A program made the translations under genes and the position numbers. A DNA stretch of 64,000 bases, from assembly GCF_000969985.1 (NCBI RefSeq), contig NZ_CP009526.1, forward strand, positions 1,798,001 to 1,862,000, written 5' to 3'. The notes below the pieces were generated by a model, which saw nothing but the letters and a program-made list of their open reading frames with translations, was not told the DNA's origin and did no database searches. Shown here one piece after another: positions 47,031 through 49,674 of the stretch; position 1 is the first letter of the stretch; the number at the start of each line of letters is the position of its first letter. This DNA comes from Methanosarcina barkeri str. Wiesmoor (lineage in GTDB: Archaea > Halobacteriota > Methanosarcinia > Methanosarcinales > Methanosarcinaceae).

Positions 47031-48071
47031 TCAAAGCAGATATCTTCTTGAGCTCAAGACCGTCCTGAGAATCTCTTCACTGCCTGCTTTTTCGACTCTG
47101 ATGTCAGACGGCTTTTCGATTATATCTAGATTGAAAGGAAGACGCTTCCGGATTTCCCCAATTAGCTGAAAATCCCCGCTCAGAATAACGCAGTCAATAA
47201 GCTTTTTTTCTTCAAGAACCCTGTCCAGGACTTCGAGGACTTTATCCATGTGGTGTGCGATATCTTCTTCCCTGAGGCGTTCGAAACGGCGCTGGCTAAA
47301 GCCTCCTTTACTGTGCTTTTCCTTTACGCTGCTGCGGATAAGCTCTTCGGTATCGAAAACCTGCGCATCTGGAGCAAAACCTATGAAGGATTCGCCGGCG
47401 TGCAGGACAAGGACAAGCATGCGGTAGTCCTTACTTAAGATCTCTTCAAGCAAAGAGACCTCAAAACTATCCCCAAGCTCCCAGGCTGGGAAAGTGATAG
47501 GAAAAGGAGGAGCTATAGCTTCACAGACCATACGGTGAAGATCATAAAAAAGTACAAGGCCGGTCTCAGGCTCAAGCCTGTCAAGAAGGGTACGGGTTTC
47601 CTCTTCCACGCGCTTAAGAGCCTTTTCACTTATCACACCTGAGAGTCGGGTTCCAGGAGGTAGGTAAGCGGTCAGCAGGCCGCCTGCAGGGGCGTGGAAG
47701 GACTTGAGCTTGGAGAGGTAAGCCTGAACAACTTGCAGGCTCAGGTTTTCAATCCCACGGAACTTCAGTTTGCCCTCGGATTCGGTTCTGATTGTTTCGA
47801 GCTCGTGGGAAAGAGTCCGGGTGCGAATACGTTCCTGATTTAAAAGAGCCTCAGCTTCCTGCCTGTCCGAAACCGCTTGCCTTGCAAGAATCTCTTTTTT
47901 TTCAAGCTGGTTTTTTGCACTCTGCAAATCAAGTTCCAGTTTAACAATCTGCGAGTTGAGACTCTCTATCTCAAGTTCGAGCTGTTCTTTTCCTGAAATC
48001 TTCCCAAGAAATGTACTTAAGCCGTTTTTCGTAACTTCAGAGGCTTCTTTTTTTGCTTTTTTGTCGTTAAT
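47031..48071 (-). CDS. Vms1/Ankzf1-like (eRF1-fold) protein, probable ATT start
   Basis: The VLRF1/Vms1 release-factor-like domain contains EKHSKGGFSQRRFERLREED. Vms1 proteins use a G-x-S-Q loop to hydrolyse peptidyl-tRNA on stalled large ribosomal subunits; here the loop is GGFSQ. A standard start (TTG 47927) gives 298 residues, but the frame stays open for 48 more codons of good coiled coil (KEQLELEIESLNSQIVKLEL) up to ATT at 48071. GAGGGAAG lies at ideal distance before that ATT, giving 346 residues. A TAG lies just upstream. The ribosome-rescue role is inferred from family knowledge. Confidence 0.72.
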   Translation of the reverse strand: MNDKKAKKEASEVTKNGLSTFLGKISGKEQLELEIESLNSQIVKLELDLQSAKNQLEKKEILARQAVSDRQEAEALLNQERIRTRTLSHELETIRTESEGKLKFRGIENLSLQVVQAYLSKLKSFHAPAGGLLTAYLPPGTRLSGVISEKALKRVEEETRTLLDRLEPETGLVLFYDLHRMVCEAIAPPFPITFPAWELGDSFEVSLLEEILSKDYRMLVLVLHAGESFIGFAPDAQVFDTEELIRSSVKEKHSKGGFSQRRFERLREEDIAHHMDKVLEVLDRVLEEKKLIDCVILSGDFQLIGEIRKRLPFNLDIIEKPSDIRVEKAGSEEILRTVLSSRRYLL

Positions 48072-48414
48072 CTACTTCCCTCACACACTGTTATTTTTAA
48101 CTTCAGATGTCTGATTATTTTTAACTCAGATGTCGGATTAATAAAATAATAACTCTCTATAAAGTTTATTTATTAATTAATTTTAATCCTTATTATTTCG
48201 AAAGTTTTAATAATATCGTATTGAATGTCACTTTGTTTTCAGGAGCATTTTCTGAAAAGCAAGCTGATTTAAGAAATTATTTCCCAGATTATTAACCTTA
48301 TGAATCACTCCGCTGCCTGAATGAGATCATCATTAAAACACTTTTAAACCCAGACAGGCAGAAAGACCCTAACCAGGAAAGCCCCGGTCAAAGGGGCCGG
48401 ATTGAGTAGATGAA
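48072..48414. other. Divergent spacer between Vms1-like gene and coaBC
   Basis: TTATTTTTAACT(T)CAGATGTC is duplicated (about 48090-48130). A GCCCCGG/AAGGGGC hairpin (48381-48397) lies just before coaBC. Promoters for both divergent genes should be here. Confidence 0.4.
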
Positions 48415-49674
48415 ATGGATAATGAAGAAAAGCAAAAGGCCCCCGGGTCCAGAGCCGAAAAGTTCCACCCCACACTCTGGATCCAGGGGCAAAAGAGCTC
48501 TTCCCTTGCCGGAAAAACCATAGTTCTTGGTGTCACGGGAAGTATTGGAGCAGTCAGGGTAGTTGAACTTGCAAGAGAGCTAATCAGAAACGGGGCTGAG
48601 GTCCATGCTGTTATGACAGAGGCTGCCACGCGTATTCTGCACCCTGATGCCCTGCACTATGCTACCGGAAATCCAGCAATTACCGAACTTGGAGGCAGGG
48701 TTGAACATGTAGAGTTCTGCGGGCTCAAGGGCAGGGCCGACCTTCTCCTTATAGCCCCTGCAACTGCAAACACCATTGGTAAAATCGCATACGGAATAGA
48801 TGATACTCCTGTAACTTCATTTGCAACAACTGCCCTCGGCTCTGGTATACCTTTGATGGTTGTTCCTGCAATGCACGAATCAATGTTCAGGCACCCGGCT
48901 GTAGCTGCGAATCTGATAAGATTGAAAAGCTGGGGAATATCTATTGTGGGCCCCAGGCTTGAAGAAGGCGTTGCAAAAATTGCAGCAAATGAAGAAATCG
49001 TGCTCGAGGTAGAAAGAGCTCTCGGAAACAAAACCCTTGAAAACCGAAAAATAATTATCACGAGCGGCTCTACTGCCGAAAGTCTAGACCCCATCCGAAT
49101 TATCACGAACCGGGCTTCAGGTAAAACCGGCAGGGAGCTTGCTCTTGAAGCTTATCGCAAGGGAGCTGATGTAACCCTGGTTCATAGAGACCGGCTTGGG
49201 TTTGCAGGAATCAGGGAGGTTTTTGTAGAGAGTGCCGCCGACATGACTGATGCTGTACTCTCGGAACTCGAGAAAGAGTACGATGTTCTTATCAGTTCGG
49301 CAGCAATTGCAGATTATACAGCCGAACCTTCTCCCGGAAAGATAAAATCGGGAGGAGAACTCACCTTGAGACTGAAGCCCACCCGCAAATTGATTAAGGA
49401 ATGCCGTCAAAAGTATCCTGACCTCGTAATTATAGGTTTCAAGGCTGAAACCGGAATTGAAAAAGAAGAACTCCTCAGAAGGGCAGCCTCAACCCTTAAA
49501 ACTTCAAAATTGGACCTGATTGCAGCAAATGATGTCGCAAAAGGTGGAATGGGCACTGAGGAGAATGAACTGTACCTGCTTGGACAGAAAAAAAATGAAC
49601 CAAGGCACGTAAGCGGGAATAAACGCAAACTTGCAGCCTTTATCCTTGAAGAGGCAGCCGATCTGTTAAAGTAA
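48415..49674 (+). CDS. coaBC: Phosphopantothenoylcysteine decarboxylase / phosphopantothenate-cysteine ligase
   Basis: A 419-residue bifunctional CoaBC. The N-terminal FMN-dependent CoaC decarboxylase (about 25-210) has GVTGSIGAVRVVELARELIRNG, IAPATANTIGKIAYG and PAMHESMFRHP. The C-terminal CoaB ligase (about 215-415) has TSGSTAESLDPIRIITNRAS followed by GK, and ISSAAIADYT. It couples 4'-phosphopantothenate to cysteine and decarboxylates it to 4'-phosphopantetheine. It is followed 91 bp later by pantoate kinase, so the cluster codes for consecutive steps of archaeal CoA synthesis. No strong Shine-Dalgarno is seen. Confidence 0.93.
   Translation: MDNEEKQKAPGSRAEKFHPTLWIQGQKSSSLAGKTIVLGVTGSIGAVRVVELARELIRNGAEVHAVMTEAATRILHPDALHYATGNPAITELGGRVEHVEFCGLKGRADLLLIAPATANTIGKIAYGIDDTPVTSFATTALGSGIPLMVVPAMHESMFRHPAVAANLIRLKSWGISIVGPRLEEGVAKIAANEEIVLEVERALGNKTLENRKIIITSGSTAESLDPIRIITNRASGKTGRELALEAYRKGADVTLVHRDRLGFAGIREVFVESAADMTDAVLSELEKEYDVLISSAAIADYTAEPSPGKIKSGGELTLRLKPTRKLIKECRQKYPDLVIIGFKAETGIEKEELLRRAASTLKTSKLDLIAANDVAKGGMGTEENELYLLGQKKNEPRHVSGNKRKLAAFILEEAADLLK

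Follow-up and report, generated by a model that had tools for sequence, protein, structure and literature searches.

The gene for the archaeal Vms1-like release factor aVLRF-1 in Methanosarcina barkeri str. Wiesmoor very probably has a real, clade-wide non-AUG start codon and is one among several Methanosarcina genes with such a near-cognate start. The window analysed is a stretch of 64,000 nucleotides (G000:C2:1798001-1862000) of the 4.9 Mb focal Methanosarcina genome, G000, and coordinates of the gene are given within it. We consider it highly likely, from the genomes compared, that translation of aVLRF-1 starts at ATT 48071 by means of a Shine-Dalgarno element, that the ATG was lost once, and that the gene is part of a wider tolerance of Methanosarcina for near-cognate starts. 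The features to which the argument refers are as follows.

47031..48071, minus strand: aVLRF-1 coding region from the ATT through the TGA, 346 codons and the stop
48069..48071, minus strand: probable ATT start codon; the same codon is ATT or ATC in 9 Methanosarcina species and ATG in 19 of 29 genus genomes
48072..48074, minus strand: in-frame TAG adjoining the ATT upstream, which rules out an upstream start in G000
48075..48082, minus strand: GAGGGAAG, Shine-Dalgarno-like element upstream of the ATT
48090..48136, minus strand: tandem duplication of 23/24 nt in the leader (copies at about 48136-48114 and 48113-48090)
47925..47927, minus strand: TTG, the first canonical in-frame start, codon 49
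47778..47993, minus strand: predicted long N-terminal helix, residues 27-98 (structure model)
47292..47306, minus strand: GGFSQ, residues 256-260, the GGxSQ catalytic-loop motif of aVLRF-1/acVLRF-1

The minus-strand frame comprises 346 codons without a stop, beginning with ATT (48071-48069) and closed by TGA (47033-47031). As the preliminary description had stated, it opens directly behind a stop, the TAG at 48074-48072 (a second in-frame stop, TGA, lies upstream at 48083-48081), and 48 codons stand ahead of the first in-frame ATG, GTG or TTG, which we confirm to be the TTG at 47927.

Judged by its sequence, the encoded protein is aVLRF-1. The Vms1-like identity first proposed for it is supported by Pfam (acVLRF1 at 62.8 bits and eRF1_2 at 39.4 bits, both above the cut-off of 27.1) and by GGFSQ, which all 27 full-length orthologues contain; the NCBIfam model NF041024 (acVLRF1) scored 38.4 bits, below its curated cut-off of 125 bits. 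The Pfam search returned no match to a C-terminal eRF1/Pelota domain in the focal protein. The best PDB sequence match was the archaeal aRF1 3agk (E 4.9e-12), and all 14 PDB sequence matches were archaeal or eukaryotic release factor 1. The structure model is of low confidence (pLDDT 55.9 for the whole, ten-residue means of 53-81 in helix 27-98), and with it the top Foldseek matches were eRF1 and the hibernation factor Balon; we infer from the model that helix 27-98 is the coiled coil expected of aVLRF-1. Passages of PMC6514570 credit archaeal VLRF-1 with a long coiled coil at the N-terminus and a GGxSQ motif, which is given there for acVLRF-1 as well, and say that it lacks a Pelota domain at the C-terminus. 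The focal protein resembles this description in its GGxSQ, its predicted N-terminal coiled coil and its lack of a match to a C-terminal Pelota-type domain; no structural difference from the described aVLRF-1 was found, and what is unusual is the start codon of a nine-species clade.

Of the 30 genus genomes searched, all but G010 (no match at E 1e-20) have the gene, and the frame is full-length in 26 of the 29 orthologues. Comparing ATG with ATT across these orthologues, a check proposed in the preliminary description, gave ATG starts in 19 genomes (17 full-length, plus G011 and G017; where the alignment of a row set in only past the ATG, the start was taken to be the closest ATG upstream in frame) and ATT or ATC at the focal codon in nine: ATT in G000, G023, G028 and G009, and ATC in G013, G020, G001, G016 and G022. 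The comparison also took in G030, from another genus of the same family, which starts at ATG. Members of the ATT/ATC group were matched to M. spelaei MC-15 and to the MAGs UBA5, UBA11020, UBA289 and Bin.035, and we take the nine-species group to be barkeri-like. One further MAG, G004, has ATT at the focal column and an ATG two codons upstream, its gene being matched in two overlapping frame pieces; it is a possible second ATG-to-ATT change at this column.

In the gene tree the nine ATT/ATC species lie on one side of a branch of modest support (68/45), which was recovered in 66% of 200 bootstrap trees. This tree needs one start-codon change, and none of 500 label shuffles needed as few. A single origin of the ATT/ATC start from an ancestral ATG, in the ancestor of the nine species, is thus the history that these sequences make most likely. 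A recent mutation of the original ATG, the other explanation offered at the outset, is rejected, as ATT or ATC stands in nine species that all have a full-length frame and differ by a mean pairwise dS of about 0.5; a private recent mutation in G000 is ruled out by the eight further species. Since dN/dS is well under 1 at this mean dS, the start-codon change is old and the gene has been kept.

The rates pN/pS and dN/dS were computed over the 36 pairs of the nine ATT/ATC species. For codons 2-48, pN/pS was 0.103/0.365 and the median dN/dS 0.22; for codons 49-346 the values were 0.071/0.376 and 0.139. By these measures codons 2-48 are under purifying selection, in agreement with the coding-like character that had been ascribed to the codons ahead of TTG 47927. 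Because nine species keep ATT or ATC at the focal codon and codons 2-48 are under purifying selection, ATT 48071 is beyond chance; the non-canonical start suggested by the first reading of the frame is supported, and ATT 48071 is very probably the start of the aVLRF-1 gene.

Synonymous change is reduced directly behind this codon. In the nine ATT/ATC species codons 2-16 have a pS of 0.175, against 0.373 in the median window (14 of 330 overlapping windows are as low). The same codons are not lowered in the five nearest ATG species (0.452 against a median of 0.457), and the 17 ATG species together give 0.507 against 0.566, with 61 of 330 windows as low. This single window hints at constraint on the mRNA behind a weak start. 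Selection against reversion to ATG was not found at fourfold sites; because G is likewise missing from 48 of 51 mostly-pyrimidine fourfold columns, the retained third-base pyrimidine is in itself no evidence of selection. Folding of the start-region RNA of the focal gene gave no notable structure (z +1.24).

The distance between the Shine-Dalgarno element and the ATT, which had been called perfect, is indeed good: in G000 the GAGG of GAGGGAAG ends 7 nt before the ATT, and 7 nt is the commonest spacing among calibration starts (30 of 109; a Shine-Dalgarno scan of all columns was too noisy and served solely for this calibration). GAGG stands 7 nt before the start in eight of the nine ATT/ATC species, G023 having only GGAG at 4 nt, and every one of the nine genes has a Shine-Dalgarno-like 4-mer (GAGG or GGAG) 4-8 nt before the codon.

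The leader tandem duplication is common only to G000 and G028 among the nine ATT/ATC species, and it increases the distance from an AT-rich stretch to the Shine-Dalgarno element. The divergent intergenic region also holds a strongly conserved noncoding block at about 48190-48290, which includes TATTATT...AATAATA and perhaps represents promoter elements. The divergent neighbour of the aVLRF-1 gene is the gene at 48415 on the plus strand, which is presumably coaBC-like.

Near-cognate starts were also surveyed beyond the focal gene. In a first survey of 400 kb of G000 against 400 kb of G013 (53 pairs), the focal gene and an MgtC-like gene stood out; at this distance the noncoding DNA of the two genomes has not yet lost its similarity. 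A second set 800 kb of G000 against 1.2 Mb of G015, leaving 204 of 334 reciprocal best frame pairs after removal of overlapping shadows. Its rule required that the reference have, in the first 40 aligned columns, an ATG preceded by a Shine-Dalgarno-like element and that at least 6 of the 12 following residues be identical, and it misses genes that are near-cognate in both genomes. Ninety-seven G015 ATG starts were testable in G000, where the codon was ATG in 88, GTG or TTG in 2, near-cognate in 3 and another codon in 4 (three of these four have another canonical start, and one is a misaligned PhoU-like gene). The three near-cognate codons, each with a Shine-Dalgarno element and no alternative start, are the focal ATT, the ACG of a universal stress protein and the ACG of a thioredoxin-like protein. 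With G000 as the reference, none of 102 was near-cognate without an alternative, and one near-cognate codon had an alternative start.

A wider and looser list of 56 flagged pairs was inspected by eye. Candidate ATT starts behind a Shine-Dalgarno element were seen in genes for a PhoU-like protein (L124:4215), a metallophosphoesterase (L061:11671, minus strand) and a Fasciclin lipoprotein (L120:11950); as near-cognate starts these and one CTG gene are only plausible, on the strength of two genomes. GyrA (A_+_790379) was dropped as an ACG start, having a good Shine-Dalgarno element at its ATG.

The most uniform of the other cases is the MgtC/DUF4010 membrane protein (G000:C2:1881751, outside the window), which has ACG in 25 of 27 loci and ATG in two, G018 and G004 (the loci are L087, from 1501, and L088-L113; L114, a partial match, was left out). 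An in-frame stop lies two codons upstream, with one codon between, in 26 of the 27, and in no locus is there a canonical codon upstream. Downstream, a canonical codon (ATG, GTG or TTG, varying) is found 13 or 16 codons away in 25 of the 27 loci, and in 23 of the 25 with ACG; in G002 and G026 there is none within 20 codons. Most loci have a GAGG-type Shine-Dalgarno element.

The universal stress protein (G000:C2:1891075-1891527, minus strand) varies far more. Its start column across 22 loci (L223-L244) holds ATG in 10, ACG in 8, ATT in 2, ATA in one and, in one, ACA beside an ACG. A GTG stands in frame three codons upstream in 10 of the 11 genes with ACG, ATT or ATA; a purine stretch lies directly against this GTG, which hence has poor spacing, and two of the 10 genes (G013 and G002) have an ATG further up. 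The exception is G000, where no canonical codon occurs from the stop to 12 codons past the ACG, and the same holds for G026, the ACA row. The thioredoxin-like protein (G000:C2:2312223, plus strand; L195-L222) has ATG in 24 of 28 loci and ACG in four, those of G000, G005, G007 and G008. In G000 and G005 the frame has no canonical codon between the stop and the 30th codon beyond the ACG, which in G005 sits behind a full GGAGGTGA; in G007 a TTG lies 32 codons upstream, and in G008 both a TTG and a GTG lie a short way upstream. The near-cognate cases of these two proteins in other species are mostly less clean. For G000 itself, near-cognate starts in four genes are well supported by these alignments.

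We suggest that the Shine-Dalgarno element would place the 30S subunit at ATT 48071, where the initiator Met-tRNA would pair with the near-cognate codon, one mismatch being accepted, and that the product would be a 346-residue protein with the whole coiled coil. The ancestral ATG would have become ATT or ATC once, in the ancestor of the nine-species group, and have been kept since, and aVLRF-1 would be one case of a wider Methanosarcina tolerance for ATT, ATC and ACG starts behind a Shine-Dalgarno element. Initiation at ATT or ATC would presumably be weaker than at ATG and be proofread by aIF1; in archaea aIF1 favours proofreading of wrong start complexes, according to portions of PMC7531240. 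By analogy with infC and sigR, which follow IF3, the output of aVLRF-1 may be low and would track the activity of aIF1.

How the ATT/ATC start came to be kept can be read in more than one way. If a near-cognate codon with a good Shine-Dalgarno element suffices in Methanosarcina, loss of the ATG would have been nearly without effect and the codon would have drifted neutrally, a proposition whose chances we judge to be evenly balanced. Such tolerance is favoured by two genes in which the start codon differs irregularly between species: the thioredoxin-like ACG is dispersed over four genomes, and the universal stress protein mixes ATG, ACG, ATT and ATA across the genus (most of its near-cognate genes having the upstream GTG). 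The absence of reversion in aVLRF-1 also fits the neutral expectation. Drift accounts less well for an MgtC-like gene that keeps its ACG in nearly all loci and for the reduced synonymous change behind the focal start.

A broader proposal, which we hold only tentatively, is that Methanosarcina has a relaxed start code, with a few percent of genes starting at ATT, ATC, ATA or ACG behind a good Shine-Dalgarno element, some of them genus-wide and missed by gene finders, and with an aIF1-controlled set including the rescue factor that would form an initiation-fidelity regulon. Such genes would escape notice, since gene finders accept no start other than ATG, GTG and TTG; we grade the proposal lower because most of the universal stress genes counted have a GTG upstream.

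Somewhat less probable still, and in our view unlikely, is that selection made the ATT/ATC start a regulatory device specific to the rescue factor, by which aVLRF-1 would be raised only when initiation fidelity is relaxed. The long-kept ACG of the MgtC gene and the quiet codons 2-16 of aVLRF-1 favour regulatory use, the latter being low in the ATT/ATC species and not in the ATG sets compared; nine species have kept ATT or ATC, and infC and sigR, controlled by IF3 through such starts, are precedents in passages of PMC5472188. Against it, other species keep ATG, and the fourfold-site control shows nothing exceptional in the lack of reversion. Near-cognate starts also occur in unrelated genes, and the idea that the codon throttles a rescue factor, put forward in the preliminary description as a limit on its expression, is weakened because the MgtC-like, universal stress and thioredoxin-like genes of G000 start likewise.

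Two other positions for the start itself are very improbable. TTG 47927 would make the 48 upstream codons a leader, and as the first canonical in-frame start it is the choice of a gene finder restricted to ATG, GTG and TTG. In the orthologue alignment, by which we reject it, that position is TTG in only three of the nine ATT/ATC species (G000, G013 and G028), contrary to what a common start there implies, and four (G020, G016, G022 and G009) lack any ATG, GTG or TTG up to alignment column 125, which covers about 105 codons. The upstream codons, moreover, evolve under purifying selection and can be aligned with the N-termini of relatives that start at ATG, and a start at TTG 47927 would cut predicted helix 27-98.

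Equally remote is a start at an in-frame GTG that six of the nine species have five codons ahead of the ATT/ATC, with no stop between, the gene being damaged in the three that bear stops. As a common start this GTG is excluded by in-frame stops, which directly precede the ATT in G000 and G028 and lie four codons before the ATC in G013; in these three species no canonical codon occurs between the upstream stop and the ATT/ATC, so that the statement that there is no usable in-frame canonical start holds for them, the other six having the GTG. The conserved GAGG/GGAG element sits 3' of the GTG and not 5', and the three genes do not look damaged, the 346-codon frame being intact in each and pairwise dN far below dS. 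The ATT/ATC codon is therefore the only start found in these sequences that fits all nine species.

To our knowledge, clade-wide kept non-AUG starts are rare, and the well-characterised ones we know of are mainly bacterial (infC and sigR). Near-cognate starts may be a feature of Methanosarcina that gene finders have missed; four unrelated genes in one genome, one of which has ACG at 25 of the 27 loci read, suggest mis-annotated N-termini for a set of Methanosarcina proteins, and such genes offer a ready set for probing, in the living cell, how strictly archaeal aIF1/aIF2 select AUG. Literature on non-AUG or unusual starts in Methanosarcina and archaea, and on Methanosarcina N-termini and proteogenomics, held no report of ATT or ACG starts in Methanosarcina in the titles and abstract openings among the matches listed. 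Excerpts of a Ribo-seq study of M. mazei give ATG, TTG, GTG and 5% CTG for unannotated small ORFs (PMC11456600), and passages of two other papers name only AUG, GUG and UUG as start codons (PMC4350412; PMC7531240).

Among known systems, the closest in kind is infC, which starts at ATT in E. coli and at ATC in Streptomyces, as parts of PMC5472188 have it; like infC, the focal gene has an ATT/ATC start and a product acting on the ribosome. It differs in that infC encodes a factor that rejects such codons and regulates itself, whereas aVLRF-1 is a release-factor homologue, and in that its host is an archaeon, where aIF1 takes the place of IF3. Streptomyces sigR, which starts at GTC and is repressed by the initiation-fidelity factor IF3 (passages of PMC5472188), is likewise a single gene with a non-canonical start, but it encodes a bacterial sigma factor, its codon is GTC and not ATT or ATC, and it has been studied by experiment, the focal ATT/ATC start being deduced from sequence. 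Chloroplast genes, for which portions of PMC9845219 report evolutionarily kept non-AUG starts, offer the parallel of a kept start of this sort in a prokaryote-like translation system, though in an organelle and in other genes. With the infC and sigR type, the aVLRF-1 gene shares a non-canonical start codon that is conserved across related species, in this case nine.
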